From positions 1 to 33,718 of the forward strand of contig CANRFJ010000025.1 of assembly GCA_947629865.1 (NCBI GenBank): 33,718 nucleotides of DNA, given 5' to 3'. The DNA comes from an uncultured Lachnospiraceae bacterium. Lineage in GTDB: Bacteria; Bacillota; Clostridia; Lachnospirales; Lachnospiraceae. A program made the translations under genes and the position numbers. The notes below the pieces were generated by a model. It searched no databases and was not told where the DNA came from. It saw only the letters and a program-made list of their open reading frames with translations. Numbering within the stretch: the stretch's first letter is position 1; each line of letters opens with the position of its first letter. Positions 13,679 to 33,718 of the stretch are shown here, piece after piece.

Positions 13679-13712
13679 AATTTTTCCGCAAATGCGGTAT
13701 GCTAATAGCAAA

Positions 13713-19205: not shown

Positions 19206-19214
19206 TGATATAAA
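19206..19214 (+). promoter_or_regulatory. Candidate extended -10 promoter of the recombinase gene
   Basis: TGATATAAA contains TG, one base, then TATAAA at 19209-19214, an extended -10 element without a recognisable -35. A start site about 7 bases downstream would place the following hairpin at the very 5' end of the recombinase mRNA. A separate small hairpin, GGTGC/GCACC near 19165-19178, lies upstream and is unassigned. Confidence 0.4.
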
Positions 19215-19223
19215 ATCAAACTG

Positions 19224-19288
19224 AAAAGGCAGACAGTGAGGAGTAGATGCAGGATGCTGCATCACGGCATTGTCTGCCTGTATTTTTT
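19224..19288 (+). terminator. Attenuator-like hairpin in the recombinase leader
   Basis: AGGCAGACA at 19227-19235 pairs perfectly with TGTCTGCCT at 19271-19279, extended by three more pairs including a G-U. An inner GATGCAG/CTGCATC hairpin lies within, and T6 follows at 19283-19288. It ends two bases before the GGAGG of the recombinase, so it can stop transcription before the gene is read. Confidence 0.7.
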
Positions 19289-19303
19289 ATGGAGGCAGAG
19301 AAA

Positions 19304-20164
19304 ATGAAACGAAGAATAACAGACGAATTACTGGAGAATTACCGAATCTATCTCTACGAACAGGAAAAAGGAAAGGCCACGATAGAAAAATATATGCGTG
19401 ACCTGGACAAACTGCTGCAGTATGCAGCGGGGCGAAAAGTGGACAAGCCGCTGGTAATCGGATACAAAGAATATCTGAAAAACGAGCGAAACTACAAAAC
19501 GAGCAGCATAAACTCATTCCTTGTGGCGGCGAACCGCTTTTTTGATTTTATGAACTGGAATGAACTGAAAGTAAAGACATATCGGGTACAGAAGGAGACA
19601 TTTATGCCAGAAAACAGGGAACTGTCCAGGGGAGAGTACAGAAAACTGGTGAATACGGCCATGCGAACCGGACGGGAGCGGATTGGCATGATCGTCCAGA
19701 CTATCTGCGCCACGGGCATACGGGTGGGCGAACTGTCGTTTATCACTGTAGCGGCTGTAAAATGCGGAATGGTCGCCATCTATAATAAGGGGAAAGAGCG
19801 TCAGATACTGATACCGAGGGATCTGCAGGTGCGCCTGCTCCATTATATCCGGAAAAGGGGGATAAAGTCGGGAGCCGTCTTCCAGACATCCGGAGGGAAA
19901 GCCGTGGACAGGAGCTGGGTGTGGCGCGAGATGAAGAAACTGTGCGGGGAAGCGGGAGTCGATAAGGAGAAAGTGTTCCCCCACAATCTGCGGCACTTAT
20001 TCGCCCGAACATTTTACGGACTCTATCGTGATATTGTAAAACTGGCGGATATGCTGGGACACAGCAGTATCGAAACGACAAGAATCTATCTGAAAGAATC
20101 TTATGCGGAGCACCGGAAGCAGATCGAAAGGCTGAATCTGTTGGTGGAAATGAAGTCCACATAA
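19304..20164 (+). CDS. Tyrosine recombinase, probable promoter invertase
   Basis: 286-residue site-specific tyrosine recombinase. An N-terminal SAM-like core-binding domain spans about residues 5-90 and the catalytic domain about 105-280. The active-site residues are visible: R140 in CATGIRVGEL, a lysine in the beta-hairpin NKGKERQI (163 or 165), H227-x2-R230 in FPHNLRHLF, H253 in LGHSSIETT and nucleophile Y262. Length fits a single-purpose XerC-like invertase rather than a phage integrase with arm-binding domains. ATG 19304 has GGAGG eight bases upstream; earlier in-frame ATGs sit in the terminator hairpin. Its last codons and stop lie inside the left arm of a perfect inverted repeat, so its substrate is very likely the adjacent 204-bp segment. 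Confidence 0.93.
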   Translation: MKRRITDELLENYRIYLYEQEKGKATIEKYMRDLDKLLQYAAGRKVDKPLVIGYKEYLKNERNYKTSSINSFLVAANRFFDFMNWNELKVKTYRVQKETFMPENRELSRGEYRKLVNTAMRTGRERIGMIVQTICATGIRVGELSFITVAAVKCGMVAIYNKGKERQILIPRDLQVRLLHYIRKRGIKSGAVFQTSGGKAVDRSWVWREMKKLCGEAGVDKEKVFPHNLRHLFARTFYGLYRDIVKLADMLGHSSIETTRIYLKESYAEHRKQIERLNLLVEMKST

Positions 20165-20175
20165 TGAATATTATG
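20155..20175 (+). repeat. Left inverted repeat (IRL) of the invertible element
   Basis: 21 bases starting GTCCACATAAT and ending ATATTATG, an exact reverse complement of 20380-20400. Within it CATAAT and ATTATG form a dyad around an asymmetric GAAT core, as expected for a tyrosine recombinase site. It includes the recombinase stop codon TAA at 20162-20164. Confidence 0.95.
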
Positions 20176-20201
20176 CTGAAAAATCCACAGAAGCAAAGTC
20201 A

Positions 20202-20230
20202 AGTATACCATGTTTTTACTATATATGCAA
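20202..20230 (-). promoter_or_regulatory. Minus-strand promoter in the invertible segment
   Basis: Read on the minus strand: TTGCAT (complement of 20225-20230), a 17-base spacer, then TATACT (complement of 20202-20207) preceded by TGG, an extended -10. The -35 matches only TTG, but the extended -10 compensates. It now points into the 3' end of the recombinase gene. Confidence 0.6.
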
Positions 20231-20303
20231 GTGGCAAATCCTGTGTCAGCGCTTTTGTGGTTATTTGGTGTACATCTTTTTCGATTATTCCCGACTTAAT
20301 ACG

Positions 20304-20333
20304 CAGAAAGGCATAAGAATACCTCTGTTTTTT
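20304..20333 (+). terminator. Weak terminator-like hairpin inside the invertible segment
   Basis: CAGA at 20304-20307 pairs with TCTG at 20324-20327, with inner GG/CC and AT/AT pairs and small bulges, followed by T6 at 20328-20333. In this orientation it could stop read-through from the recombinase into loaP. The stem is weak. Confidence 0.3.
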
Positions 20334-20360
20334 ATTATATGCTCCTCTCTGCATTGGCAA
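20334..20360 (-). promoter_or_regulatory. Second minus-strand promoter candidate in the invertible segment
   Basis: On the minus strand TTGCCA (complement of 20355-20360) is followed after 15 bases by a perfect TATAAT (complement of 20334-20339). The spacer is shorter than the ideal 17, so strength is uncertain. It has the same direction as the other candidate, away from loaP in this orientation. Confidence 0.45.
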
Positions 20361-20379
20361 GAGCTGATGTGCAAAATAA

Positions 20380-20400
20380 CATAATATTCATTATGTGGAC
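20380..20400 (-). repeat. Right inverted repeat (IRR) of the invertible element
   Basis: Exact 21-base reverse complement of 20155-20175, ending ATTATGTGGAC. The symmetry stops abruptly on both sides, with the outer flanking bases mismatched, as expected for a defined recombination site. It lies 32 bases before the loaP start codon. Confidence 0.95.
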
Positions 20401-20432
20401 AAGCCTGAATCGGGCGGAAAGGAAGACGGTTC

Positions 20433-20990
20433 ATGTGGTATGTGGTGCAGGCTCTCGGCAATGAAGATATGGAAAAAGTATGCAGCAAATGCAGAACAGC
20501 CATGCCGGAGGAAATTGTAAATGAACTTTTTATACCAAAGTATGTCTGCCTGAAACATTTCAAAAAGGCATGGCATGAGAAACTTCTTCCGCTGTTTCCG
20601 GATTACTTCTTTATTGATACGGAGCAACCGGCAGAGGTGGAAGAACGTCTGAAACCGCTTTCCCGCATTATGAAGCCGGTGTGCGTCGGGAAAGACTTTA
20701 TCCCCATATATCCGGAGGAACAGAAATTTCTGGAGGAAATGATGGACAGGCAGCATGTGATACAGAAATCAACGGGGGATCTGATAGATGGAAAGTTTGA
20801 AATCTATGCGGGACCGCTGCAGGACAGCGGGAAGCACGGTCTGATCCGGAAGATAGACAGACACAGAAGGCTGGCCAGTCTGGAGGTGCAGCTTTTGGGG
20901 GAGCCAAGGCAGGTACAGGTCACGTTGGAAGTTGTGCGAAAAATCAATACGGCGGCTATCGGCGTACCGGCAGATAAAGCAGGAATGTAG
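20433..20990 (+). CDS. loaP: LoaP-type NusG paralogue, transcription antiterminator
   Basis: 185-residue specialised NusG protein. The N-terminal NGN domain starts MWYVVQALGNED and runs to about residue 110, ending with the YPEEQKFLEEMM segment. The C-terminal KOW domain has GPLQDSGKHGLIRKIDRHRRLASLEVQLLG, matching the LoaP-type signature G-x-I-x-KIDRH(K/R)R. LoaP proteins travel with RNA polymerase and allow read-through of terminators in long polysaccharide or antibiotic operons. Here it is the first gene after the invertible promoter and is followed after 51 bases by the exopolysaccharide genes. AAAGGAAG precedes the ATG. I could not identify its RNA recognition hairpin in the short gap to the next gene. 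Confidence 0.88.
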   Translation: MWYVVQALGNEDMEKVCSKCRTAMPEEIVNELFIPKYVCLKHFKKAWHEKLLPLFPDYFFIDTEQPAEVEERLKPLSRIMKPVCVGKDFIPIYPEEQKFLEEMMDRQHVIQKSTGDLIDGKFEIYAGPLQDSGKHGLIRKIDRHRRLASLEVQLLGEPRQVQVTLEVVRKINTAAIGVPADKAGM

Positions 20991-21041
20991 TATTCTGGCG
21001 GGGGCATAGCACAAATATATACTTAAATAGTAAGGAGCGCA

Positions 21042-22010
21042 ATGGAGAAATCATTGAAGATTGCGATGATCGGCCACAAGCGGATACCTTCCAGAGAGGG
21101 AGGAATAGAAGTCGTCGTAGAGCAGCTGGCAGTTCGCATGGTGCAGGCCGGACATCGGGTAGATGTTTACAACCGGAGTGGTCATCATGTATCGGGAAAA
21201 GAGAATGATGGGAAAGGCCAAAAGAAATTAAGGGAATACTGTGGGGTGCGCATTATCACCATCCCGACATTCCGGAATAAAAAGCTGAATGCCCTTGTTT
21301 ATTCTTTTCTTGCGACTATCCGGGCGTTATTTGGACATTATGATGTGATCCATTACCATGCAGAGGGGCCATGCTCCATGATCTGGATTCCGCACCTGTT
21401 TCATATAAAGACAGTGGCGACCATTCACGGACTGGACTGGCAGAGATCCAAATGGGGCGGCTTTGCCACAAGATTCCTTTTGTTCGGGGAGAAGATGGCG
21501 GCCAAATATGCAGATGAACTGATTGTTTTGTCAGCAAATATGCAGAAGTACTTCAAAGATACCTACCAAAGGGATACCGTACTGATTCCAAACGGCGTAA
21601 TGCGTCCCCAAAAGAAACCGGATAATCATATCAGGGAAAAATGGGGATTGACAAAAGGAGAATATATTCTTTTTCTTGCCAGGCTGGTGCCGGAAAAGGG
21701 AGTGCATTATCTGCTGGATGCCTATAAGGAAATACAGACAGATAAGAAACTGGTCATAGCGGGAGGTAGCAGCCATACCGATGATTATGTGAATGAAGTC
21801 AGAGAAAAGGCATCGCAGGATCCCAGGGTAATTCTAACCGGTTTTGTCCAGGGGGAATTGCTGGAGGAACTGTACAGCAATGCGTATGTATATGTATTGC
21901 CAAGCGATGTAGAGGGGATGCCGATCAGTTTGCTGGAGGCCATGAGCTATGGAAACTGTTGTCTGGTCAGCGACATCGCTGAAAATCTGGAGGTTGTGAC
22001 AGATGTCTGA
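21042..22010 (+). CDS. GT4-family glycosyltransferase, main part (frame broken near the C terminus)
   Basis: 322-residue GT-B glycosyltransferase transferring a sugar from a nucleotide donor to the growing repeat unit on the cytoplasmic face. The N terminus (KIAMIGHKRIPSREGGIEVVVEQLA) resembles the DUF1972/rhamnosyltransferase-like GT4 group. The donor-binding E-x7-E is E291 to E299 in VEGMPISLLEAM. The frame ends at TGA 22008-22010 soon after SDIAENLEVVTDV, where GT4 proteins normally continue about 60 more residues. That missing tail is encoded in the +1 frame at 22003-22203. The gene is therefore split by a frameshift, either real or a sequence error. GGAG precedes the ATG, and it is the first structural gene after loaP. 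Confidence 0.85.
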   Translation: MEKSLKIAMIGHKRIPSREGGIEVVVEQLAVRMVQAGHRVDVYNRSGHHVSGKENDGKGQKKLREYCGVRIITIPTFRNKKLNALVYSFLATIRALFGHYDVIHYHAEGPCSMIWIPHLFHIKTVATIHGLDWQRSKWGGFATRFLLFGEKMAAKYADELIVLSANMQKYFKDTYQRDTVLIPNGVMRPQKKPDNHIREKWGLTKGEYILFLARLVPEKGVHYLLDAYKEIQTDKKLVIAGGSSHTDDYVNEVREKASQDPRVILTGFVQGELLEELYSNAYVYVLPSDVEGMPISLLEAMSYGNCCLVSDIAENLEVVTDV

Positions 22011-22203
22011 AAATGCGGTTAGCTTTGAAAAAGGGAATATACAGGATTTAAGAGAAAAATTACAGACGCTCTGTGAGGATAAAGAAAAAGTCTTCTCTTA
22101 TAAAACGACAGCGTCTGATTATATTTGTAATAAATATAATTGGGATGATGTGGTGAAACAGACTTTGGAATTGTATCGGGGGATAGAGCAATTTTGTGGA
22201 TAG
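22003..22203 (+). pseudogene. C-terminal fragment of the preceding GT4 glycosyltransferase
   Basis: 66 codons in the +1 frame relative to the upstream gene, reading MSENAVSFEKGNIQDLREKLQTL and then a helix ending YNWDDVVKQTLELYRGI. This is exactly the C-terminal helix-turn of GT4 enzymes, where N-x-Y/F-x-W-x-x-V-x-x-x-x-x-x-Y is usual. It overlaps the upstream frame by eight bases. A GGAGG at 21989-21993 sits nine bases before its ATG, so separate translation as a small subunit is possible. No slippery sequence of the usual kind is present at the junction, so mutation or an assembly error is more likely than programmed shifting. Confidence 0.7.
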
Positions 22204-22255
22204 CTGCAGTCAGAGATTTCAGCAAAAAGATTATTTGTTTGATAGGAGAATAGTA

Positions 22256-23440
22256 ATGTCTGAAAATACTCAGGGAAAGAAACTGAATGGAACAGTTATC
22301 GTGACCTACCGCTGCAATGCGAGATGTTCTATGTGCAACCGCTATAAAGCTCCTTCTAAACCGGAGGAAGAAATCAGTGTTGAGACGATAAAAAAGCTGC
22401 CTAAGATGTACTTTACCAACATTACGGGCGGAGAGCCTTTTATCCGCATGGATTTAAAAGATATTGTGCGGGAACTGTATAAGAAGTCAGACCGTATCGT
22501 TATATCTACGAATGGTTTTTTTACGGATCGTATCGTGGAGCTGTGTAAGGAATTTCCGCAGGTTGGCATACGGATATCCATTGAAGGACTGGAACAGACA
22601 AACAATGAGATAAGAGGGCTTGATAATGGATATCAGCGCGGCTATCAGACCTTGAGAACACTGGTGGATATGGGAATGAAAGACGTCGGATTCGGCATGA
22701 CGGTACAGGATAAAAATGCGCCGGACCTCGTTCCCCTATATCAGATTTCAGATGAAATGAATATGGAGTTTGCCACGGCGAGCCTGCACAACAGCTTTTA
22801 TTTTGTGGAGGCGAAAAATATAATCCATGACCGTCCAATGGTAGCGCAGAATTTTGAAAACCTTATCAATAAACTCCTGGCAAGCAATAGTCCAAAGAAA
22901 TGGTTCAGGGCCTACTTCAATCACGGACTGATTAACTATATTTACGGGCAGCCGCGTCTGCTTCCGTGCGATATGAGTTTTGATACCTTCTTTATCGATC
23001 CTTATGGCGATGTGATGCCCTGCAATGGGACGAAGGATAAGGAAGTGATGGGAAATCTGAACACGCAGACATGGGATGAGCTGTGGAACAGTCCGAAGGC
23101 AGAACAGGTAAGGAAAAAGGTCCGCTGCTGCGACAGGCAGTGCTGGATGATCGGATCGGTCAGCCCGGCGATGCACAAGTATATATGGAAACCGGCATGG
23201 TGGGTGATACGGCATAAAATCAAGTTTTGGACTAAGAAGAAATATTCCATGTACGAGAATCGTATCGTCAGGGATTACAGGGATGGAAAAGTGACAAAGG
23301 AAGAACTTGATCGGTGCAGTACATGCGATCTGAATGCAGAGATCAACAACGGACTGTCCGAAGCGTCGAGAGAACAGCTAAGGACAAGAAACGGGGAAGA
23401 GATTGTGGATGAGGATATTGCCGGGCAGATGAGAGAATGA
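22256..23440 (+). CDS. Radical SAM protein with SPASM-like C-terminal region
   Basis: 394-residue radical S-adenosylmethionine enzyme. The [4Fe-4S] motif is C20-x3-C24-x2-C27 in TYRCNARCSMCNRYK, followed by a GGEP-type motif (NITGGEPFIRMDL) and STNG. The second half has DPYGDVMPCNG, a GNL...W.ELWNS segment and further cysteines (VRCCDRQC, CSTC), like the auxiliary-cluster SPASM/twitch region. It sits within the exopolysaccharide operon between glycosyltransferase and nucleotide-sugar genes. A role in modifying a sugar or lipid carrier, or a peptide attached to the glycan, is possible but cannot be told from sequence. TAGGAGAA precedes ATG 22256; an upstream in-frame ATG overlaps the previous gene. 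Confidence 0.85.
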   Translation: MSENTQGKKLNGTVIVTYRCNARCSMCNRYKAPSKPEEEISVETIKKLPKMYFTNITGGEPFIRMDLKDIVRELYKKSDRIVISTNGFFTDRIVELCKEFPQVGIRISIEGLEQTNNEIRGLDNGYQRGYQTLRTLVDMGMKDVGFGMTVQDKNAPDLVPLYQISDEMNMEFATASLHNSFYFVEAKNIIHDRPMVAQNFENLINKLLASNSPKKWFRAYFNHGLINYIYGQPRLLPCDMSFDTFFIDPYGDVMPCNGTKDKEVMGNLNTQTWDELWNSPKAEQVRKKVRCCDRQCWMIGSVSPAMHKYIWKPAWWVIRHKIKFWTKKKYSMYENRIVRDYRDGKVTKEELDRCSTCDLNAEINNGLSEASREQLRTRNGEEIVDEDIAGQMRE

Positions 23441-23464
23441 AATCCGAAAGGAGCAGTTTGAAAG

Positions 23465-24532
23465 TTGAGTTGTGTAGAACTATCCGGAAAAAACATATTA
23501 GTTACGGGCGCTGCCGGGTTTATTGGGGCAAATCTGGTCAAACAGATTCTTGCCAGGGCAGAAAATGCAGTAGTCATCGGCATTGACAACATGAATGATT
23601 ATTATGATGTGAATTTAAAAAAAGCCAGACTCAAAGAAATCGCAGATAATTCATCCTTTGTTTTCATAAAAGGAAATATTGCGGATAAAGAATTGATTAC
23701 AGATGTTTTTGAGCGATACAGGCCGCAGATTGTGGTAAATCTGGCTGCACAGGCAGGCGTCCGGTATTCCATTATCAATCCGGATGCTTACATAGAAAGC
23801 AATCTGATAGGCTTTTATAACATCTTGGAAGCGTGCAGACATTCATACGATGGAGGGAAAGAGGGCGTTGAGCATTTGGTATATGCAAGTTCATCCAGTG
23901 TGTACGGCTCCAATAAGAAGGTGCCATATAGCACAGATGACAGGGTGGACAACCCGGTAAGCCTGTATGCGGCAACGAAAAAGAGCAATGAGCTTCTGGC
24001 TCATGCGTATTCCAAGTTATATGATATTCCGTCCACGGGACTGCGCTTTTTTACTGTATATGGACCGATGGGGCGTCCCGACATGGCCTATTTTGGTTTT
24101 ACAGATAAACTGCGAGCGGGACAGACGATCCAAATTTTTAACTATGGTAATTGCAAACGCGATTTTACCTATGTAGATGACATTGTGGAAGGCGTTGTGC
24201 GGGTCATGAGAAAGGCGCCGGACAGAAGGCAGGGCGACGATGGTCTGCCACAGCCGCCGCACAAGGTTTATAACATTGGCAACAGTCAGCCGGAGAGCCT
24301 TCTCTCTTTTATAGATATTCTTCAGCAGGAACTGGTTCGGGCTGGCGTGCTGGGACAGGATTATGATTTTGAAGAACACAAGGAGCTTGTGCCTATGCAG
24401 CCGGGGGATGTTCCGGTAACTTATGCGGACGTAAGCGAGCTGGAGAGGGACTTTGGCTTTAAGCCGTGTACCAGCCTGCGTGACGGACTGCGAAAGTTTG
24501 CGGAATGGTACAAGGATTATTACAGGATTTAG
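23465..24532 (+). CDS. NAD-dependent epimerase, UDP-glucuronate 4-epimerase type
   Basis: 355-residue extended short-chain dehydrogenase interconverting nucleotide sugars, most like UDP-glucuronate 4-epimerases (CapI/LpsL). The NAD motif is TGAAGFIG at about residues 14-21. NLAAQAGVRYSI near 98 and YASSSSVYGSNKKVPYS are typical of the uronate epimerases, the catalytic pair is Y168-x3-K172, and LRFFTVYGPMGRPDMA near 195 is the subfamily hallmark. It starts with TTG at 23465; an in-frame TGA immediately upstream rules out a longer protein, and AAAGGAG lies 11 bases before. With the next gene it would convert UDP-glucose to UDP-galacturonate. Confidence 0.88.
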   Translation: MSCVELSGKNILVTGAAGFIGANLVKQILARAENAVVIGIDNMNDYYDVNLKKARLKEIADNSSFVFIKGNIADKELITDVFERYRPQIVVNLAAQAGVRYSIINPDAYIESNLIGFYNILEACRHSYDGGKEGVEHLVYASSSSVYGSNKKVPYSTDDRVDNPVSLYAATKKSNELLAHAYSKLYDIPSTGLRFFTVYGPMGRPDMAYFGFTDKLRAGQTIQIFNYGNCKRDFTYVDDIVEGVVRVMRKAPDRRQGDDGLPQPPHKVYNIGNSQPESLLSFIDILQQELVRAGVLGQDYDFEEHKELVPMQPGDVPVTYADVSELERDFGFKPCTSLRDGLRKFAEWYKDYYRI

Positions 24533-24562
24533 AATGCATGATGCGGAGGCAGGAAGACAGGT

Positions 24563-25813
24563 ATGAGAAGCTTAGAGGACATAAAGATTGCCGTTGCCGG
24601 CATGGGCTATGTAGGACTTTCTATTGCTACGCTGCTCAGCCAGCACCATGAGGTAATGGCGGTAGATATCATCCGGGAGAAAATTGATCTGATTAATCAG
24701 AGAAAATCTCCCATAGAGGATGAGTATATTGAAAAATATTTCTCAGAAAAGGAACTGCGTCTTACGGCTACGCAGGATGCAGAGACAGCATACCGGGATG
24801 CGGATTTTGTGGTGATTGCCGCACCCACCAATTATGACAGTAAAAAAAATTTTTTTGATACGTCAGCGGTTGAAGCAGTGATTAAGACGGTTCAGGAGTG
24901 TAATCCGAAAGCTGTCATGGTAATCAAGTCTACGGTTCCGGTTGGATACACGGCACATATTCGCGAACAGTTTCACTGCGAAAATATTGTGTTCAGTCCG
25001 GAATTTTTAAGGGAATCAAAAGCGTTGTATGATAACCTGTACCCGAGCCGCATCATTATAGGTACAGACATGAAAAGTGACATGTTGGCGGAGGCTGCCC
25101 ATGTGTTTGCCAAGCTTCTTCAGGAGGGGGCTGTTAAGGATAATATTGATACGCTTTTTATGGGGTCTACTGAAGCCGAAGCGGTCAAATTGTTTGCCAA
25201 TACATATCTGGCTCTGCGGGTGTCTTACTTCAATGAACTGGATACATACTGTGATGTGAAGGGTTTGTCCACAAAGGAAGTCATTGAGGGAGTATGCCTT
25301 GACCCGAGAATTGGCAATCACTATAATAATCCTTCTTTTGGATACGGCGGTTATTGTCTCCCGAAAGATACAAAGCAGCTGTTGGCTAATTATCAGGATG
25401 TTCCTGAAAATCTGATTGAGGCAATTGTTGAGAGTAATAGGACAAGGAAGGATTTTATTGCAAATAGGGTATTAGAGGAAGCAGGGTATTATACGGCCAG
25501 TTCTATGTGGAATGCTGAGAAAGAACGTCCAATCACAATAGGCGTGTACCGATTGACTATGAAAGCTAACAGCGATAATTTTCGGCAGAGCAGTATTCAA
25601 GGTGTAATGAAGAGGCTGAAAGCTAAGGGTGCGACGGTTATTATTTATGAACCCTCTCTGTCGGATGGCATGACATTTTTTGGCAGTCTTGTCGTAAATG
25701 ATGTTGAGAAGTTTAAGCGGGGGGCGGACTTGATAATTGCTAATCGCTACGAATCGGCGCTTGATGATATGGGAAAGAAGGTCTATACAAGAGATTTGTT
25801 CAGGAGAGACTGA
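24563..25813 (+). CDS. ugd: UDP-glucose 6-dehydrogenase
   Basis: 416-residue cytoplasmic enzyme oxidising UDP-glucose to UDP-glucuronate with two NAD+. The N-terminal Rossmann motif is [10 protein letters not shown] (GxGxxG), followed by APTNYD and KSTVPVGYT. The catalytic cysteine is C265 in [15 protein letters not shown], and [23 protein letters not shown] is the family's substrate-binding signature. Length and all motifs are normal. A GGAGGCAGGAAGACAG stretch precedes the ATG. Paired with the upstream 4-epimerase it provides UDP-GlcA and UDP-GalA, predicting an acidic polysaccharide. The sequence becomes visibly richer in A/T towards its 3' end. Confidence 0.95.
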
Positions 25814-25828
25814 GGTGAGAATATAAGG

Positions 25829-26866
25829 ATGGCTGCATATAAAGAAAACATAATCCTTGCAGACTGCAAAGCGGAAGAGATTAAGCTGTTTATTGAAGGA
25901 TTGAGTAAGAATGGGGAAATCTACTCTGTCAAGTCACATCCGGCCAACTGGGCACGCGCAGGTGCGATAAGTGAGATTAGGCGGTATATGAAATATTTTA
26001 CAATTGCGTTTAAATATTTTTTTCATAGGAAAAGGTATGGAGACATCTTGTGCTGGCAACAGTTTTATGGGTTAATCATCGGATTTTACTGTAATATTTT
26101 CAAGATAAAAAAGACGAACCGGATTACTGTAGTCAACTATACATATAAAGAGAAAAAGAGATTCAAGAGATTGTACCAATGGTTCATGAAGATGTGTTTA
26201 AGCGGTGGATATGTTGATTTTCTGCATGTTCCATCATATGAATATGCGGATACCATCAGTAAGGAGTTTGGTTTTTCGCGGGATAGAATTATAGTTGCTC
26301 CCTTTGGAATCGACGACATATATGAAAAATTTCGAAATCTGGAACCACCGGAAGATTATAAAAAGGATGGGTATATGGTTGCAATTGGCCGTTCTAACAG
26401 AGATTTTAATTTCCTCATCAATGCTTGGGAGGGGCTTACTTATCCGCTTGTCATCATCTCGGATTCGTTTAAGGGAAAACCAGACAATCCAAAAGTTTCT
26501 ATTCGGAGAGATATATCCGGCGATGCGCAGTATCAATGGCTCATAAACTGTAAGACAATTATTATTCCGATAGACGACGGAAGCATTTGCTCTGGGGATA
26601 CTGTTTTGTTGACTGGGATGTCATTCAAGAAAATCGTTTTAGTAACGATGCCAAGCACATTGGCAGAAATGTACATTCAGGGGGATAATGGTCTGACTGT
26701 AAGTAAGGATGTAGAGAGTTTGCAAAGAATAGTCAAAGATATTATTAATGGAAAGTTTGATCATATCCAGGAAACGGCTAGAAAATGTTTTCTGGAAAAA
26801 TATTCCCGCTTTAATTTGGGGACGGCTGTAATAGATGCGATAGATAGAGGGGGAACTAAGAAGTGA
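25829..26866 (+). CDS. GT-B glycosyltransferase-like protein (GT4-like)
   Basis: 345-residue protein without a signal peptide. The N-terminal half has weak Rossmann character, and residues about 155-330 look like the donor-binding half of GT-B enzymes: RIIVAPFGIDDIY, MVAIGRSNRDFNFLINAW, and IPIDDGSICSGDTVLLTGMSFKKIVLVTMPSTLAEMYIQGDNGLTV, which aligns with the E-x7-E region although the first acid differs. The C terminus (CFLEKYSRFNLGTAVIDAI) is like other GT4 tails. Specificity is unknown. Its stop overlaps the GTG start of the next gene. Confidence 0.72.
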   Translation: MAAYKENIILADCKAEEIKLFIEGLSKNGEIYSVKSHPANWARAGAISEIRRYMKYFTIAFKYFFHRKRYGDILCWQQFYGLIIGFYCNIFKIKKTNRITVVNYTYKEKKRFKRLYQWFMKMCLSGGYVDFLHVPSYEYADTISKEFGFSRDRIIVAPFGIDDIYEKFRNLEPPEDYKKDGYMVAIGRSNRDFNFLINAWEGLTYPLVIISDSFKGKPDNPKVSIRRDISGDAQYQWLINCKTIIIPIDDGSICSGDTVLLTGMSFKKIVLVTMPSTLAEMYIQGDNGLTVSKDVESLQRIVKDIINGKFDHIQETARKCFLEKYSRFNLGTAVIDAIDRGGTKK

Positions 26867-28104
26867 AGATATTGCTTGTAAATTACCGATATTTTATTTC
26901 CGGAGGACCGGAAAAATATATGTTCAATATAAAAAGGGTTCTGGAGGAAAAGGGGCATGAGGTTATCCCGTTTTCTGTTCATTCAAACAGGAATGTCGAG
27001 ACAGAATATTCAAAATATTTTGTGGAGCCGATAGGAGGAAGGAATGCCACTTATTTTGACGAGGTAAAGAAGACACCTAAGTCCATATGGAAGATGATAA
27101 CAAGGAGCTGTTACTCACTGGAGGTAAAGAGGGCCATACAGCGAGAAATACAGGATGTAAAGCCGGATTTGGTCTATATTCTTCATTATGTGAACAAACT
27201 ATCGCCCAGTGTTATAAGAGGGGCAAAAGAACTTGGCGTGCCGGTGGTGCTGAGGTTGTCCGATTATTTTTTGCTCTGCCCGAGATTTGATTTTCTGAGG
27301 AATAAGAGGATATGTGAGGATTGCCTTACAAATGGCTATACAAGCTGTATAAAGAACCGATGTGTAAAGGAATCGCTGTCCGCGTCAATGATACGGGTTT
27401 TATCTATGAAGATACACCGGATGATAAAGATTTATGATGATGTGGATGCCTTTATAACGCCGTCGCACTTTTTGAAAAATAAACTTGCAGATAATGGCTT
27501 TCCCAAGGAGAAGATTCACTGTATACCGACATTTACGGTAGATCAGGATTTTGACTGCGAGGCAGGAAACGATGATGGGTATGGACTGTATTTTGGCCGT
27601 ATAACAGAAGAAAAGGGCGTGGACGTCGTAGTAAGAGCCTATGAGAAACTGCCGGATCATACAGTAAAGATCATGGGAGACGATACAACAGACGAGGCGC
27701 TGCGCCTGAAAGAATATGTAAAGGAACACTATTTGAAAAATATCGAATTTGTCGGTTTTAAGAGCGGCGAGGAGCTGGAGCAGATAATCCGGAAAGCTCG
27801 GTTTACAATTATACCATCTATCTGGTATGACAATCTGCCCAATACGGCTCTTGAATCCTTTAAGTATGCAAAGCCGGTTCTTGCAAGCAATATTGGAAGT
27901 TTGCCGGAGTTAATTGTTGATGGGTATAACGGATATTTGTTTGAGCCGGGGAATGCATTGGAGTTAAAAGAAAAAGTATTGTTGCTTGACAAGGATGAAA
28001 TAGTGGGCAGATTTGGAGAAAACAGTAAAAAACAATTAAGAGATCAATTTTCTCAGAAACAGCATTATAGCAAATTGATAAGTGTGTTTGAAAGTATTGT
28101 GTGA
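26863..28104 (+). CDS. GT4-family glycosyltransferase
   Basis: 413-residue GT-B glycosyltransferase. The N terminus KILLVNYRYFISGGPEKYMFNI is the usual acceptor-side start. A cysteine-rich insertion (CPRFDFLRNKRICEDCLTNGYTSCIKNRC) near residues 143-170 recurs in some GT4 capsule enzymes and could bind a metal. The donor half contains GLYFGRITEEKGVDVVVRAYEKL and PSIWYDNLPNTALESFKYAKPVLASNIGSLPELI, with the E of the E-x7-E pair. The GTG start at 26863 overlaps the previous stop, and a GAGGGGG lies nine bases upstream. Sugar specificity is not apparent. Confidence 0.88.
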   Translation: MKILLVNYRYFISGGPEKYMFNIKRVLEEKGHEVIPFSVHSNRNVETEYSKYFVEPIGGRNATYFDEVKKTPKSIWKMITRSCYSLEVKRAIQREIQDVKPDLVYILHYVNKLSPSVIRGAKELGVPVVLRLSDYFLLCPRFDFLRNKRICEDCLTNGYTSCIKNRCVKESLSASMIRVLSMKIHRMIKIYDDVDAFITPSHFLKNKLADNGFPKEKIHCIPTFTVDQDFDCEAGNDDGYGLYFGRITEEKGVDVVVRAYEKLPDHTVKIMGDDTTDEALRLKEYVKEHYLKNIEFVGFKSGEELEQIIRKARFTIIPSIWYDNLPNTALESFKYAKPVLASNIGSLPELIVDGYNGYLFEPGNALELKEKVLLLDKDEIVGRFGENSKKQLRDQFSQKQHYSKLISVFESIV

Positions 28105-28138
28105 ATTGTTGAGGACTTTTTTATAGGAGAGAGGGACA

Positions 28139-29317
28139 ATGAAAAGGTTTAAAGATTTTATTATAGATATAGTTGATTACATAGTAGTTTTTAGAAAAAG
28201 AAGAATTGAAATAAGAAAATACAAAAACCCAATGCGAAAAAAAATCATTAATTCAATACAATTGACAAAAGAACAAAAACGGAAAATTGATACTTTTTAT
28301 AAAAAGAATTATGGAAAGAAAATACCATATGTATGGCATCAAAACTATATGGCACATTCGGGTGAATTTAATGAGAAACAATTTCCTGAGTTATTATATA
28401 CTCCGGAGTTTGAGCATTTTATGAATATGTGGCCAGAGTATTGTTACGTTTATGAGGATAAAAATGTTTTACCACTATTAGCAGACAAAGCTAAAGTAAA
28501 AATGCCAAAAATTATTCTGTCAGTAACAAAGGGGGTGCTTCGAGACAGCAATTATAATGTATTAGAAGAAAATGAAGCTGTTGAGTTATTATCTCATGCC
28601 TCTAAAGTGTTTATAAAACCTACTGTTGAATCATGTAGTGGAGAGGGGTGCTTAGTAGCTGAATTCATAAATGGTAAAGATATTATGGGAGGAAAAAAGG
28701 CGCATGATATGATATGTTGGCTTAAAGAGAAAAAGGATATGGTAGTACAGGAACGTGTCGTTTGCCATGAATCTATATCAAGACTCTATTCTGGAAGTGT
28801 AAATACATTCAGAATATTATCGTACCGCTGGAAGAATGAAATTATCTGTCCTTCGGCTATTATGCGAGTTGGAAGAGGAAATGCATATGTAGATAATGCA
28901 CATGCGGGCGGAATGTTTGTTGCTATTAATGGGGATGGAGTCCTTAAAGGAAATGCAGTTACAGAATTTAATGAGCAATTTGTTGAACATCCAGATTCTA
29001 AGATACTATTTGATGGATATAAAATAGATTTATTTCCTCGGTGTATAGATGCAGCTGTCAAGGTGCATGAAATGATGCCACAAGTAGGTGTGGTTAATTG
29101 GGATTTTACTATTGATGAAAGTGGTAATCCTGTGTTGATAGAAGTGAATTTGTTCGGTTGTGGTATATGGATATATGAAATGGTCCATGGGGAAGGAGCA
29201 TTTGGAAACAATACGGAAGAAATTTTGAAATGGCTTAGGTTGATGAGAAAAACAAGGAAAAGTCGTAGATATGGATATGCGTTTGGTAATATGAAATCTG
29301 AAGAACATAAAAATTAG
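28139..29317 (+). CDS. Sugar-transfer-associated ATP-grasp family protein
   Basis: 392-residue ATP-grasp protein of the type found in capsule loci (ATPgrasp_ST). ATP-grasp enzymes join a carboxylate to an amine or similar group via an acyl phosphate. Recognisable pieces are SKVFIKPTVESCSGEGCLV (nucleotide-binding lysine and glycine-rich loop) near residue 160, VNTFRILSYRWKNEIICPSAIMRVGRGNAYVDNAHAGGMFVAI near 220-265, and the metal-binding VNWDFTIDESGNPVLIEVNLFGCG near 318-340. The gene is strikingly A/T rich compared with the first 20 kb. AGGAGAGAGGGAC precedes the ATG. The acceptor and donor are unknown; amide modification of a uronic acid or peptide is conceivable given the UDP-GlcA genes upstream. 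Confidence 0.82.
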   Translation: MKRFKDFIIDIVDYIVVFRKRRIEIRKYKNPMRKKIINSIQLTKEQKRKIDTFYKKNYGKKIPYVWHQNYMAHSGEFNEKQFPELLYTPEFEHFMNMWPEYCYVYEDKNVLPLLADKAKVKMPKIILSVTKGVLRDSNYNVLEENEAVELLSHASKVFIKPTVESCSGEGCLVAEFINGKDIMGGKKAHDMICWLKEKKDMVVQERVVCHESISRLYSGSVNTFRILSYRWKNEIICPSAIMRVGRGNAYVDNAHAGGMFVAINGDGVLKGNAVTEFNEQFVEHPDSKILFDGYKIDLFPRCIDAAVKVHEMMPQVGVVNWDFTIDESGNPVLIEVNLFGCGIWIYEMVHGEGAFGNNTEEILKWLRLMRKTRKSRRYGYAFGNMKSEEHKN

Positions 29318-29355
29318 ATGAAAACTTAATAAATGAAATGAAAGGTGGTATGCAT

Positions 29356-30264
29356 ATGAAATTGTCCAATATAATAAATAATCCTTTAGAGTTGATTTTT
29401 TTGATTGGAATACATGGCGGATTTCGGTTTCTAAGCGATGAGCAGTATTTAAAACTTATGTATCGCTGTCAATTTAGAGAAAAATTAAATCTTAAAAACC
29501 CGCAAACCGCAAACGAAAAATTACAATGGCTTAAACTTTATGATCACAATCCTGAATATATAACAATGGTGGATAAATATGAGGTCAAGCAGTTCGTTTC
29601 AAATAAAATAGGAAAAGAATATGTCATTCCTACACTTGGAGTTTGGAATAAATTCGATGATATAAATTTTGATGACTTACCGAAACAGTTTGTCTTAAAG
29701 TGCACTCACGATAGCGGTAGCATTGTGATTTGTCGTGACAAAACCAATTTTAATATTGGTAAGGCTAGAAAACAGATAACCCATTCTTTGAAAAGAAATT
29801 ATTATTGGGTAGGTCGTGAATGGCCGTATAAAGGAGTTAAACCGAGGATAATTGCGGAAACGTATCTTGAAGATTTTGAAAATAAAGGGAATTTAACAGA
29901 TTATAAAATTTACTGCTTTAATGGTATAGCAAAATTGTTAATGGTTGCTACAGATCGCTATTCCGCAAGTAAGAAAAGGTTTGATTACTTTGATGAAAAT
30001 GGAAATTGGATAGATATGTCATGGGGTGTTCCTAATTCTGGCAAGAAGCAAGTGCCTCCTCCTTCTTTTGAGCAATTAAAAAAGACAGCGGAGGTACTTG
30101 CAAAAGGAATAGCACATGTACGGGTAGACTTATATATAGTAAATGAAAATATTTATTTTGGAGAAATGACATTTTATGATGGCAGTGGATTTGATTTAAT
30201 TACGCCACATGAATGGAATGTAAAAATAGGGAGTTGGATACAGTTGCCGGAAAATCACATGTAG
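29356..30264 (+). CDS. TupA-like ATP-grasp protein
   Basis: 302-residue member of the TupA-like ATP-grasp family, with the segments NPQTANEKLQWLKLYD, VDKYEVKQFVSNKIGKEYVIPTLGVW, LPKQFVLKCTHDSGSIVICRDK, PRIIAETYLED and DYKIYCFNGIAKLLMVATDR. The metal-binding end is HVRVDLYIVNENIYFGEMTFYDGSGF. The family takes its name from a teichuronopeptide gene of an alkaliphilic Bacillus, where the wall polymer combines polyglucuronate and polyglutamate. That parallels the UDP-glucuronate pathway in this operon. ATG 29356 is preferred because AAAGGTGG lies seven bases upstream; two earlier in-frame ATGs overlap that site. The actual substrate here is unknown. Confidence 0.85.
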   Translation: MKLSNIINNPLELIFLIGIHGGFRFLSDEQYLKLMYRCQFREKLNLKNPQTANEKLQWLKLYDHNPEYITMVDKYEVKQFVSNKIGKEYVIPTLGVWNKFDDINFDDLPKQFVLKCTHDSGSIVICRDKTNFNIGKARKQITHSLKRNYYWVGREWPYKGVKPRIIAETYLEDFENKGNLTDYKIYCFNGIAKLLMVATDRYSASKKRFDYFDENGNWIDMSWGVPNSGKKQVPPPSFEQLKKTAEVLAKGIAHVRVDLYIVNENIYFGEMTFYDGSGFDLITPHEWNVKIGSWIQLPENHM

Positions 30265-30325
30265 AAGATTTTAGTGAGTATTCTCTTGGGGAATATTGGA
30301 AAATTGATAATAGGAGTATTTGATT

Positions 30326-31546
30326 ATGAAACATAGAGTAAATTCGGTTTTCCTTGTTTGGGGAATCAGTTTGATGTTTTTAGCATTTTTATTTAATACG
30401 GTGTTGCCAGCTTGGATAAATTATGTAGACGATGCATTTTGCGCAGTTGTTGTTGTGCTCTTTGTGATTTCTCTTTTTCTAAAAAAGAAAGTCTTCAAAT
30501 TTTATTTTTGGATATTTTTGCTTATTCTGATTGGTTTAATGGGGAATTATATGTATGATGTTCAAAAGAATTTTACATTTGCATTAACAGATGCTTTTAT
30601 GTTTATCAAGCCATATATTTTGTTGATGTACATAATAATATCTGTAAATAGTATACAGGCTCAAAAAATATATCGGATTTTGACGGAGATATCAAAGATT
30701 GCAATTATTATTTTAGCAGTAGCAGCCATACTTTCTTTGTTAAAATTAGAAAGCTTTATTGGAATAATTGAAGGAATGGTAAATTCTGTAGGTGAGTTTG
30801 AATTCTATACAGGATTTACAGGAAGCGCTGCTGATATAATCATAGTATGTCTTACAATTATTGTAAGCAATCCTAGAAACAATCGTTTAGTTTATTATGT
30901 TCTAAGTTTGATTGTGATACTTAGGACCGGATCTGGGTTGGGGATACTCGCAATTGTTGGATATGCGGCAGTTTATTTTTTTATGGAGAGGAAAAAGAAA
31001 TTTCATTGGTATTATCTGTTGATTATCGTACCATTATGTTTCTGGGTTGGCAGGAATGAAATTACAAGTTATCTGCTGAACGCTGAAGCCCCTAGATATT
31101 TGTTGTTCTATTATTCAATTATCACAGCATGGGAGTATTTGCCGATAGGTGCAGGGTTTGCAACATATGGTTCTTCGGTAGCGGCTAATCAGTATTCGAA
31201 CTTGTATTATCTTTATGGGTTCTCAAACCGGTGGGGAATGGGGAAAAATGACACAGGTTTTTTGGTGGATAGTTATTATCCACAGATTATTGCACAGACA
31301 GGTTTCTTGGGCAGCGCTTTATATGGAATATTTATGTATAAACTATTTTTTAAGATTATAATGCGAATGCAAAATAATAGTGCAAAGACAGCTACAATAT
31401 ATCTGTTTGCCATTTGGGCTGTATCTGGATTGGGATTTGGGTCAAGTAGTTTGTGGGGATGTTTAGTGTATGCAGTCATCCCGATCCTATATCTGGTAGA
31501 TAAATATGATTTATATGAATGTAGAAATGTAGTTTTGCGATGGTGA
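30326..31546 (+). CDS. Wzy-like polysaccharide polymerase / O-antigen ligase-type membrane protein
   Basis: 406-residue integral membrane protein with about ten to eleven hydrophobic segments spread over the full length. It has one longer loop at about residues 245-325 containing polar and aromatic residues (LPIGAGFATYGSSVAANQYSNLYYLYGFSNRWGMGKNDTGFLVDSYYPQIIAQTG). The G-x-G-F-x-T-Y-G...D...Y loop pattern is typical of Wzy polymerases and WaaL-type ligases, which join lipid-linked repeat units outside the membrane. Sequence conservation in the family is low, so the call rests on topology and context. GGAG precedes ATG 30326 at nine bases. No flippase is found in the window. Confidence 0.8.
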   Translation: MKHRVNSVFLVWGISLMFLAFLFNTVLPAWINYVDDAFCAVVVVLFVISLFLKKKVFKFYFWIFLLILIGLMGNYMYDVQKNFTFALTDAFMFIKPYILLMYIIISVNSIQAQKIYRILTEISKIAIIILAVAAILSLLKLESFIGIIEGMVNSVGEFEFYTGFTGSAADIIIVCLTIIVSNPRNNRLVYYVLSLIVILRTGSGLGILAIVGYAAVYFFMERKKKFHWYYLLIIVPLCFWVGRNEITSYLLNAEAPRYLLFYYSIITAWEYLPIGAGFATYGSSVAANQYSNLYYLYGFSNRWGMGKNDTGFLVDSYYPQIIAQTGFLGSALYGIFMYKLFFKIIMRMQNNSAKTATIYLFAIWAVSGLGFGSSSLWGCLVYAVIPILYLVDKYDLYECRNVVLRW

Positions 31547-31610
31547 TGAAAAGTGAGATTTTTTGTTTATAGATACCCAAGAATAAAAAGGGATGAGGTG
31601 ATTAAATAAT

Positions 31611-32597
31611 ATGGTTTCAATTATAATACCTGCATATAATGTGGAAAAATATATCTTTCGTGCAATAGAATCATGTATCGAGCAAACATATAAGGATATA
31701 GAGATTATTATTGTTGATGATGGATCGATAGATAACACGTTTGGTATTATATCTGAATACGCAGAACGCGATTATCGTATACGGATATATAGGCAGCAAA
31801 ATAAAGGAGTGTCGGTTGCCAGAAACAGGGGGATTAAGGAGTCAAGAGGAGATTTTCTTATTTTTCTTGATGCGGATGATTGGATGGAAACTGACACTGT
31901 AGAAACACTGATGCAGAATTGTCAAAAAGGATATCTTTTGTGTGTTTGTATGAAATTGGTGAGGCTACAAGAAGATGACAGGTTAGATATAATATTTCCA
32001 CCTAAAAAAATAAAAGATACAATTGTCAAAAAGGATAGATTAATCAAATGCTTTTGCTGTTGTGAATATCTTTTAGGTAGTGCCTGCTATAAATTGTTTG
32101 ACAGAAAGATATTATTTGATAATAAAATTGAATTTAATTCCAAAATTCATAACGGAGAAGATGGGCTGTTTGTTTTTCGCTATCTATTATGTGTTGAGGG
32201 CTTGATATACAAAGATAAACCGTTATGGAACATATTAGAAAGAAAAGACAGTGCCACTTCGAGTGAATATAATTTTAAAATGTCAACTGCAATTGATGCA
32301 GCTGACATTTTAGTGAACTATACTGAATATAGCCTTGATAATGAACAATATGTAAAATATTACTATACACAGAGGGCAATTGTTATGAGGCGAATTGCTG
32401 CTCGAACGAGAAAAAGGCTTTCAAAGAATGAGCAAAAAAAATTAGATAAAGCCGTTAAGCGATATGTAAAGAATTATTTAATAACGGAACATTCATATAG
32501 CAAAAAAATAAAAGCACTTATAGTTATTTATTCACCTTTATTTATTTTGCGCTGGATATTAATTACATATAGTATATTCCGAAGGGATAAAAATTGA
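31611..32597 (+). CDS. GT2-family glycosyltransferase
   Basis: 328-residue GT-A-fold inverting glycosyltransferase. It opens MVSIIIPAYNVEKYIFRAIESCIEQTYKDIEIIIVDDGSIDNT, the canonical nucleotide-sugar-binding start. It continues with NKGVSVARNRGIKESRGDFLIFLDADDW, where D87-A-D89 is the metal-binding DxD motif. The acceptor side includes a KIHNGEDGLFVFRYL ED motif, probably the catalytic base. A C-terminal hydrophobic stretch around residues 302-322 may attach it to the membrane. Strongly A/T rich like its neighbours. GAGGTG lies ten bases before the ATG. The sugar cannot be predicted. Confidence 0.9.
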   Translation: MVSIIIPAYNVEKYIFRAIESCIEQTYKDIEIIIVDDGSIDNTFGIISEYAERDYRIRIYRQQNKGVSVARNRGIKESRGDFLIFLDADDWMETDTVETLMQNCQKGYLLCVCMKLVRLQEDDRLDIIFPPKKIKDTIVKKDRLIKCFCCCEYLLGSACYKLFDRKILFDNKIEFNSKIHNGEDGLFVFRYLLCVEGLIYKDKPLWNILERKDSATSSEYNFKMSTAIDAADILVNYTEYSLDNEQYVKYYYTQRAIVMRRIAARTRKRLSKNEQKKLDKAVKRYVKNYLITEHSYSKKIKALIVIYSPLFILRWILITYSIFRRDKN

Positions 32598-32668
32598 GGC
32601 GGAGGGGTGAGCGCAACGAAAATGTTAAGTAAATTAATGGTGATTCTGAAAAGTGGAGGGTGATAGTA

Positions 32669-33667
32669 ATGATGGATAATTTCTTAAAGAAGATTGCTTT
32701 GATTACTATTTATGATGATTATAATATCGGAAATAAACTTCAGAATTATGCTTTGAAAAAATCAATAGAAGATATGGGATTTGTCGTAGAAACTATTAAC
32801 ACACATTCTTTTGGACGATGGGTATTAAGTTGGAGAGGCTGGATTGTTACAATATTAGGTATTCCGCGTAAGGCCAGTCATTATCGACGAATGATGATTA
32901 AACGAAAAAAGATATTTCGGACTTTTTCCAAACGATATTTGAATGTAAGCAGACCTTACTCTTTTGATGAAATAAAAAATGGAGCATTAAGAGAATATAG
33001 TGCGTTTGTGTGTGGCAGTGATCAAGTTTGGCATCTTTGGACAAAAAAGAAAGAAGAATTAGACTATTTTTTTCTGAATTTTACCGAGGTGGATAAAAGG
33101 ATTTGTTATGCACCAAGTTTTGGCTTTGAAGAAGTACCAGAAGAATTTGGAGAGACATATCGGCGCGGGCTTATGGGATTTAATAGATTGAGCTGTCGCG
33201 AACAGTCTGGATGTGAATTAATTCAGAGATTGACAGGGAGGGAGGCGGAAAGACTTTGTGATCCAACGATGCTTTTAACGACAGAGCAATGGGATCAAAT
33301 TGCGCGAAAGCCAGAATTTTCAGTCCCTGAGAAATATCTTCTGACTTATTTTCTTGGGGCTATAAGCGAGCATATAAAGCAGAAGATAGATGAAATTGCA
33401 AGAAAATATAGTTTGAAGGTTGTTAATGTATATTGCATGGATTTCAGCAAAGAAAATGATTCCTATTTTTGTACGGGGCCGGACGAGTTTATTTTCCTTG
33501 TTAAGCATGCAACTTATGTGTGTACGGATTCTTTTCATGGGACCGTATTTTCTATCCTCTACCACAAAAGATTTGAGGTATTTCAACGAAGTGGGGAGGA
33601 TGGATTTATGATGAAGGGTCGATTGAAGACACTGTTGGAACTTTTGAGGCATCATCAGTTTGTGTGA
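32669..33667 (+). CDS. Polysaccharide pyruvyl transferase family protein
   Basis: 332-residue protein of the PS_pyruv_trans family, which adds pyruvate ketals to sugars or acts as related glycan-modifying transferases. Family segments seen are ITIYDDYNIGNKLQNYALKKSIEDMGF at the N terminus, AFVCGSDQVWHLW near 114, RICYAPSFGF near 147, LSCREQSGCELI near 175, CDPTMLL near 198, and YVCTDSFHGTVFSILYHKRFEVF near 285. ATG 32669 is chosen because GGAGGG lies eight bases upstream. It ends soon after RLKTLLELLRHH, where many relatives have a further C-terminal segment, so the end may be slightly truncated. Together with the uronate genes it predicts an acidic polymer. Confidence 0.85.
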   Translation: MMDNFLKKIALITIYDDYNIGNKLQNYALKKSIEDMGFVVETINTHSFGRWVLSWRGWIVTILGIPRKASHYRRMMIKRKKIFRTFSKRYLNVSRPYSFDEIKNGALREYSAFVCGSDQVWHLWTKKKEELDYFFLNFTEVDKRICYAPSFGFEEVPEEFGETYRRGLMGFNRLSCREQSGCELIQRLTGREAERLCDPTMLLTTEQWDQIARKPEFSVPEKYLLTYFLGAISEHIKQKIDEIARKYSLKVVNVYCMDFSKENDSYFCTGPDEFIFLVKHATYVCTDSFHGTVFSILYHKRFEVFQRSGEDGFMMKGRLKTLLELLRHHQFV

Positions 33668-33672
33668 AACAT

Positions 33673-33694: not shown

Positions 33695-33718
33695 AGTTCA
33701 TCTTATTCTGCCTTGATT

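Follow-up and report, generated by a model that had tools for sequence, protein, structure and literature searches.

A Putative Invertible-Promoter Switch in Front of a LoaP-like Gene and a Polysaccharide Operon in an Uncultured Lachnospiraceae Bacterium

The DNA stretch analysed here (the window), 33,718 nt long and identical with the whole contig C25 of an uncultured Lachnospiraceae bacterium, probably carries a self-contained phase-variation switch, in which the inversion of a promoter would turn on a loaP-like gene and the polysaccharide operon behind it. A tyrosine recombinase is proposed to act at two 21-bp repeats and to invert the segment between them, which would hold a single sigma-A-type promoter. 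In the assembled state, this promoter would point leftward and read the recombinase gene antisense from its 3′ end, leaving the loaP-like gene and the operon off. After inversion, it would face right, so that loaP and then the operon could be transcribed, with transcription predicted to begin some 73 nt upstream of the start codon of loaP (the transcript start being set 7 nt after the −10 element). The LoaP-like protein would then probably help RNA polymerase to traverse the long operon, in the manner of UpxY in Bacteroides.

Anatomy of the Locus

The recombinase gene (19304..20164, + strand; Pfam PF00589) lies in an open reading frame whose longest form spans 19247-20164 and matches the Phage_integrase family (5.4e-19). 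The ATG at 19304 is the likelier start, as it follows a good ribosome-binding site and several relatives begin at the matching residue. The protein is XerC-like, its closest solved structures by sequence being XerA and XerD. Residues R159, K181, H246, R249, H272, and Y281 are invariant in all 12 aligned recombinases, the window's included (the alignment did not contain L035 and L046); we take them to be the catalytic R, K, HxxR, H/W, and tyrosine nucleophile of this enzyme class. Just 5′ of the start codon, a terminator-like hairpin (19227..19288, + strand) is formed by a 12-nt inverted repeat (19227-19238/19268-19279) with a T-run behind it. It was absent from the output of the terminator scan, and comparable hairpins precede the recombinase genes of L035 and L038; it is possibly an attenuator or the terminator of the preceding gene.

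The left inverted repeat (20155..20175, + strand) overlaps the recombinase stop codon, and the right one lies at 20380..20400 (− strand); both are putative recombination sites and together delimit the candidate invertible segment (20155..20400, no strand assigned), an arrangement that recurs in relatives. The arms are 21 nt long, 100% complementary, and 204 nt apart. In 100 shuffled versions of the window, the arm sequence did not turn up once, even with up to three mismatches allowed, and a chance origin of the perfect repeat is excluded. No further copy of the 16-nt repeat core was found in the genome with at most one mismatch. A NusG paralogue (20433..20990, + strand) begins 32 nt beyond the right arm, and polysaccharide genes follow from 21042 to 33667, near the contig end. 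This layout is the one described in the original prediction.

The first operon gene after loaP encodes a glycosyltransferase (21042..22010, + strand; PF00534/PF13439). By tblastn it is split over two reading frames near 22003 and is thus broken in the assembly. The remaining genes (22196..33667, + strand) were assigned by Pfam/NCBIfam family matches and encode radical SAM, epimerase, UDP-glucose dehydrogenase, glycosyltransferase, ATP-grasp, and pyruvyl transferase proteins, while the frames at 25829-26866 and 30320-31546 gave no Pfam match. The terminator scans returned no + strand terminator in the interval 20400-25086. Within the operon, the number of terminators did not clearly exceed the chance expectation (11 for the two strands together versus 7.1, sd 2.5).

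Inversion in the Recombinase Family

The window recombinase is one of a large family from Clostridia in which a repeat pair lies just behind the gene. Such a pair was found at 122 of 139 loci; shuffled stretches gave one in 12 of 695 cases, and stretches 5′ of the gene in 5 of 85. An arm of at least 16 nt occurred in none of the 695 shuffled downstream stretches. By this genetic linkage, the recombinase may act on the 21-nt repeats. Contig ends cluster within 500 nt just after the recombinase (12 versus 1, p 0.003; 80 loci), which favours inversion; the fading of this excess with distance (over 4.9 kb, 23 upstream versus 36 downstream, p 0.12) speaks against it.

Family segments also carry promoter matches at a characteristic position. 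For best matches with a score of at least 12, a location 35-80 nt inside a segment end is seen in 85% of the 109 segments versus 17% of 517 shuffles. We call a segment OFF when its promoter is directed away from the downstream side and ON when it is directed towards it. Among 127 segments, a position-restricted scan gave 76 OFF, 18 ON, and 33 undecided, and orientation by score alone gave 80, 19, and 28, respectively; a stricter count yielded 17 ON and 66 OFF, where shuffles led us to expect 1.6 and 1.4. Opposite orientations were observed directly in two pairs of relatives: between L187 and L210 the segment is reversed within collinear flanks, and between L184 and L193 it is reversed behind a matching left flank. 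Segment inversion in the recombinase family is therefore well supported by sequence comparison. These pairs are more distant family members, located elsewhere than the window locus, where inversion of the segment 20155-20400 is likely.

It is very improbable that the recombinase is instead the integrase of a mobile element, with the repeats as attachment sites and not as parts of a promoter switch. Its phage-integrase fold would fit such a role, and distant relatives, the only ones of phage or plasmid origin, occur on three viral contigs (three loci, 45-50% identity) and in five plasmid records (37-47%). Against this, the family repeatedly shows two oppositely oriented sites that flank a promoter at a spacing of a few hundred nucleotides, and the segment is reversed between related loci.

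The Promoter and Its Orientation

Within the window segment, a promoter-like element (20202..20230, − strand; TTGCAT-17-TATACT, the −10 being preceded by TGG) points to the recombinase. All 11 aligned close loci, the window included, carry it at the same position and with the same orientation, the ten relatives representing only four genomes and seven of the ten coming from genome G029. The element matches the consensus at only three of six −35 positions and at five of six −10 positions, and a standard promoter scan did not list it. Its orientation in the window is ambiguous by score alone and was assigned through homology and the position-restricted scan. The promoter weights were our own, based on consensus frequencies. 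On this basis, the assembled window appears to be in the OFF state, with the candidate promoter directed away from loaP. Both this state and the promoter position are predicted by the proposed switch. A rightward element (TTGGCA-17-TAACAT, 20354-20382) was considered as an ON promoter and set aside, since on visual inspection the segments of the close relatives do not preserve it.

All 11 close loci share the OFF orientation, and across the genus 11 of 14 loci were called OFF, 1 ON, and 2 undecided, the sole ON call being L051, which is more distant than the close loci. The uniform orientation of the close loci, like the glycosyltransferase in two frames, would be expected if the switch were real by descent yet locked OFF in the window strain, with its operon decaying. 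We regard this as unlikely. The recombinase is intact with its catalytic residues complete, the repeat arms are still identical, and pN/pS in comparisons with the window is low both for the recombinase (0.20-0.36) and for the loaP-like gene (0.18-0.19, indicating purifying selection); moreover, the frame change may have arisen in assembly. A switch still able to invert remains our preferred reading.

The LoaP-like Protein

The best family of the NusG paralogue is NCBIfam LoaP (NF033641), which it matches over its full length (E 5.5e-33) at 114.4 bits, below the family cut-off of 125. With the UpxY model it reaches 19.7 bits, the cut-off being 100; by analogy, it may work like UpxY without being a UpxY member. 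It is also related to the solved structure 8f5g, deposited as NusG. The order recombinase, repeat pair, loaP-like gene, which the original prediction proposed to seek in related genomes, recurs in four loci of G029 (L037-L040), where this gene, loaP1, retains its place immediately behind the switch as in the window.

LoaP targets carry a UNCG-type RNA hairpin in their leader, according to the available part of PMC12691694. No hairpin with a UNCG loop and at least five pairs, at least three of them G-C, was found on either strand of 20150-33718, and an Rfam scan at gathering thresholds returned no LoaP RNA element, only a ZTP riboswitch far upstream. Together with the sub-threshold LoaP score, this is consistent with a segment that flips in front of a LoaP-like protein acting elsewhere or competing with a true LoaP. 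A second NusG paralogue (loaP2) in L039 and L152 scores 171 bits, and another LoaP-like gene lies on contig C3 of the window's genome. Such a role is possible, at roughly one chance in four in our estimate; the position of loaP1 directly behind the switch in five loci, its purifying selection, and its full-length LoaP match speak against it. That the LoaP-like protein controls the operon by way of processivity is an inference. The analysis supports the original prediction in that recombinase, invertible promoter, and loaP-like gene form one unit: a promoter was located, and family comparison gives evidence for inversion. Its further claim, gating of the operon by processivity control, did not gain such backing: a flipped promoter would transcribe loaP and operon jointly, the scans returned no + strand terminator early in the operon (20400-25086), and the LoaP-type RNA element was not found.

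Exchange of Parts and a Dead Recombinase Paralogue

The suggestion of a mobile module was partly right, in that the unit of recombinase and inverton precedes many different genes. Genome G029 alone has nine recombinases with 54-66% identity, and its modules share homologous stretches with differing ends. The window recombinase is closest to those of G031 and G034 (79%), where LoaP was not found in the stretches examined, while the window loaP is 76-82% like the loaPs of G029, a genome with recombinases that resemble the window's at no more than 64-67%. Recombinase and loaP therefore seem to have been exchanged independently.

The most novel by-product of the analysis is a conserved recombinase paralogue without catalytic residues, encoded behind the switch in some relatives. 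An order-level search at E 1e-65 found it in 0 of 392 genomes among the matches listed, where known holders were also missing, so that this zero carries no weight; no title or opening of an abstract in the literature searched described a dead recombinase as the partner of an inverton. Tentatively, the unit could be a feedback switch. The OFF-state promoter would make antisense RNA into the recombinase gene, and in several relatives the ON state would also express the dedicated dead paralogue. This protein could bind the same sites, holding the switch ON or keeping other switches OFF, and would fill the cross-regulatory role of the Bacteroides UpxZ; the window would be a reduced version without the dead partner. 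No UpxZ was recognised in the window, and in some relatives the dead paralogue lies near the place of UpxZ. If functional, it would give a DNA switch a simple means of controlling its own flipping.

Comparison with Known Systems

In the fimE-fimS system of Escherichia coli, an invertase gene also lies directly upstream of an invertible promoter, so that the transcript of the invertase may be subject to feedback from the orientation. Unlike the window, that system has two recombinases, a fimbrial target, and no NusG paralogue. Eggerthella lenta belongs to another phylum, Actinomycetota. There, DNA inversion shifts capsule genes relative to loaP, and the available text describes megabase inversions at 16-bp repeats with no adjacent recombinase, in contrast to the window (PMC13174815, preprint).

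A further comparable system is inverton group 139, which with tyrosine invertase group 35 falls in Clostridia in 32 of 33 cases, and whose orientation changes were measured in Clostridium sp. D5 and Intestinimonas butyriciproducens (available parts of PMC11892184). Its tyrosine recombinases adjoin short invertons, and LoaP does not occur in the main text of that paper. In a literature search that left most subscription journals outside, no report joining LoaP with a small invertible promoter was found.

The gene order, first thought unusual, is the usual layout in gut Bacteroidales, where the available parts of PMC12632263 and PMC13114119 describe a recombinase, often upstream, an invertible sigma-70-type promoter, the UpxY antiterminator, and a capsule operon. 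The window shares with those loci a recombinase 5′ of the invertible promoter, a NusG-family paralogue as the first gene, a long polysaccharide operon, and, in its relative G029, several switches per genome. What stands of the claim is a variant from Bacillota, with a LoaP-like protein instead of UpxY. The design is thus already known from Bacteroides, and the window is its Bacillota version. This suggests that gut Clostridia reached the same capsule-switch design with different parts, combining a family of tyrosine recombinases with a promoter of the sigma-A type and a NusG paralogue that resembles LoaP.

Anatomy of the Switch

The window is a complete contig (C25) of a 2.64 Mb genome assembled in 51 contigs, and the recombinase, inverted repeat, NusG/LoaP paralogue and polysaccharide genes of the original prediction were all located in it in the order claimed. 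The recombinase ORF lies at 19247-20164, with a likelier start at 19304, and is followed by a perfect 21-bp inverted repeat (20155-20175 and 20380-20400) enclosing 204 nt. The arm sequence was absent from 100 shuffles with up to 3 mismatches allowed, and its 16-nt core has a single location in the genome, at this switch. The NusG paralogue starts 32 nt past the right arm, with NCBIfam LoaP as its best-matching family (114 bits, under the cut-off of 125). Polysaccharide genes come next, reaching nearly to the contig end.

The first glycosyltransferase of the operon (21042-22203) occupies two reading frames, changing near 22003, which represents either a true lesion or an assembly error. A terminator-like hairpin with a T-run (19227-19288) stands immediately 5' of the recombinase start codon, similar hairpins being present in the related loci L035 and L038; attenuation of the recombinase is possible. 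An ordinary ZTP riboswitch (13708-13808) precedes purine genes (IMP cyclohydrolase, AICAR transformylase).

The Recombinase Family and Its Repeats

Among 39 genomes of the window's genus, recombinase relatives of at least 50% identity were found in G034, G031, G029, G003, G022, G032 and G016, with nine in G029 alone. At E 1e-70, 66 of 397 Lachnospiraceae genomes, the window's own counted, contain a match. The genome collection yielded 433 relatives out of 489 candidate stretches; the best 80 of these 433, which were retained, are mostly titled Lachnospiraceae, Oscillospiraceae or other Clostridia; the closest three comprise two 'Lapin' assemblies and a roe deer rumen assembly.

In total, 166 distinct recombinase loci were compared, and repeats were counted in the 139 that extend 400 nt or more past the gene and contain no N. 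An inverted-repeat pair follows the recombinase in 122 of them, versus 12 of 695 shuffled versions, and occurs in 5 of 85 upstream stretches; arms of at least 16 nt number 116, 0 and 3, respectively. The site form met most often is ACATAAT-nnnn-ATTATGT with extensions, and other forms occur too.

A Promoter-like Element and Its Direction

The segments of close loci have a common block, which reads TTGCAT-17-TATACT on the minus strand, with TGG immediately 5' of the -10 in 9 of 11 loci. In the window, this promoter-like element occupies 20202-20230 (minus strand), and its assignment rests on conservation, because the -35 is weak (3/6) and a standard promoter scan did not pick it up. It points toward the recombinase (OFF for the downstream gene) in all 11 aligned loci, which are the window's own plus 10 related ones in G029, G031, G032 and G034; three of these loci carry one-base variants.

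Across the recombinase family, hand-set weights gave strong promoter matches (score of at least 14) in 50% of 127 segments versus 3% of shuffles, and the best match, among the 109 segments where it scored at least 12, lies 35-80 nt from a segment end in 85%, versus 17% of 517 shuffles. Calls restricted to this position were OFF in 76 of the 127 segments, ON (toward the downstream gene) in 18 and undecided in 33. The corresponding figures are 65, 17 and 31 for the 113 segments outside the window's genus and 11, 1 (L051) and 2 for the 14 inside it; by 75%-identity recombinase cluster (92), 55 are OFF, 15 ON, 1 mixed and the remainder undecided. Both states therefore exist in the family. OFF is about four times as common as ON, an excess that could be biological or a product of what assemblers keep. 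Three invertons (L181, L200, L222) have strong outward-pointing promoter matches at both ends, so a flip could exchange the promoter facing the downstream gene.

Signs of Inversion between Related Loci

Twelve segment pairs match in reverse, compared with 63 that match in the same orientation; several of the 12 reverse matches are short, and the L181/L200 pair matches in the forward sense as well (95%). Four of the 12 were aligned. For L187/L210, identity is 357/400 and 358/400 in the two flanks, and the segment matches better in reverse (153/205) than in the forward sense (97/195). L184/L193 has a left-flank match of 340/400 and a segment match of 180/221 in reverse versus 95/163 forward, with dissimilar right flanks (179/345). 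Weaker cases are L069/L098 (reverse 96/159, forward 67/158; flanks 319/399 and 279/391) and L133/L140 (reverse 118/185 versus forward 100/183; only the left flank compared, 324/391).

Among 80 loci, contig ends within 500 nt of the recombinase lie downstream in 12 cases and upstream in 1 (p 0.003; over the six distances tried, p ranged from 0.002 at 300 nt up to 0.12 at 4.9 kb). This excess is what assemblies of mixed orientations would produce, and repeated copies could contribute to it.

Proposed Mechanism

We propose that the recombinase inverts the segment and that the assembled window represents the OFF state, in which the promoter would fire antisense into the recombinase gene and could slow flipping. 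After inversion, a transcript would start about 73 nt 5' of the loaP start codon and then traverse loaP into the polysaccharide operon. The further claim that the operon is gated through processivity control is plausible from the family of the LoaP-like protein, but this protein is divergent, no hairpin of the known LoaP type turned up in 20150-33718, and terminators are not clearly enriched in the operon.

A Recombinase Paralogue and a Second LoaP Type in Relatives

A second recombinase-like gene was found in G029 (L038:1018-1773, L039:5631-6512, L040:4084-4836, L043:4420-5256, L044:20-799), G032 (L054/L264; L264:616-1395) and G034 (L035:3499-4257), and in a second genus (G067, L257-L260). 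It retains the core-binding domain and the first half of the catalytic domain, and in 11 of 11 loci a conserved KMP...YYP tail replaces the HxxR box and the later histidine and tyrosine; from these residues, the paralogue is predicted to be catalytically dead. Its AlphaFold model (pLDDT 78, pTM 0.58) keeps both parts and resembles the XerA and XerD fold, with poor overall superposition (best TM 0.43). The paralogue is under purifying selection: five copies compared among themselves give a pN/pS of 0.03-0.28, comparisons with the distant L035, in which synonymous sites approach saturation, give 0.44-0.57, and the active recombinase gives 0.16-0.40. Matches stronger than those of active recombinases were found only in G067 among the 397 family genomes and, within the genus, in G029, G032 and G034.

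In 9 of 11 loci, an active-type recombinase gene precedes the paralogue, three times with loaP1 (the loaP-like gene directly behind the switch) between them. The active-type gene of L264 is cut by the contig start, and none was found within the stretches fetched for L257 and L258. A LoaP gene adjoins the paralogue in six loci (L038, L039, L040, L043, L264, L258). The window lacks the paralogue: 51 nt past its loaP-like gene, a stretch matches the L038 DNA behind the paralogue (90.5% over 981 nt), and a search of the genome at E 1e-50 matched only the active recombinase.

A second LoaP type occurs at L039:6606-7340, L043:5320-6138, L264:1405-2124, L258:7571-8332 and L267:11078-11806, the last on contig C3 of the window genome, where no recombinase of the switch type was found in the surrounding 19 kb. 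By eye, its extra C-terminal stretch resembles another KOW domain.

A Modular Switch and Its Known Counterparts

Gut Bacteroidales have the layout recombinase, invertible promoter, upxY, upxZ and capsule operon (PMC12632263, PMC13114119); an inverton catalogue of a defined gut community contains a Clostridia group linked to tyrosine recombinases, with flipping measured (PMC11892184); and in Eggerthella lenta megabase inversions shift capsule clusters relative to loaP (PMC13174815). The recombinases of this Clostridia group may be of the family described here. Such precedents make the window a Bacillota version of a known design.

The order recombinase-repeat-loaP recurs in a related genome, as the original prediction proposed should be checked: a loaP-like gene comes first behind the switch in the window and in four G029 loci (L037-L040), whose copies are 76-82% identical to the window's. 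The G031 switch, with a recombinase 79% identical to the window's, instead stands before BspA-type leucine-rich proteins. No family dominates the 93 first downstream proteins; among the 25 of 92 families listed are signal peptidases, DUF4352 and TetR regulators (5 each), helicase-associated and integrase-like proteins (4 each), CpsB/CapC and GGDEF (3 each) and others. A LoaP-type protein lies downstream in at least 8 of 166 loci, a minimum because many downstream stretches are short. In L182 (the same locus as L063), loaP also follows the recombinase; a single site-like sequence (L182:6095-6119) lies directly 5' of loaP, no second site was seen in the gap, and the lone site could pair with a distant one. 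Since the downstream genes differ, the switch is a modular unit, one of whose recurrent uses is coupling to LoaP.
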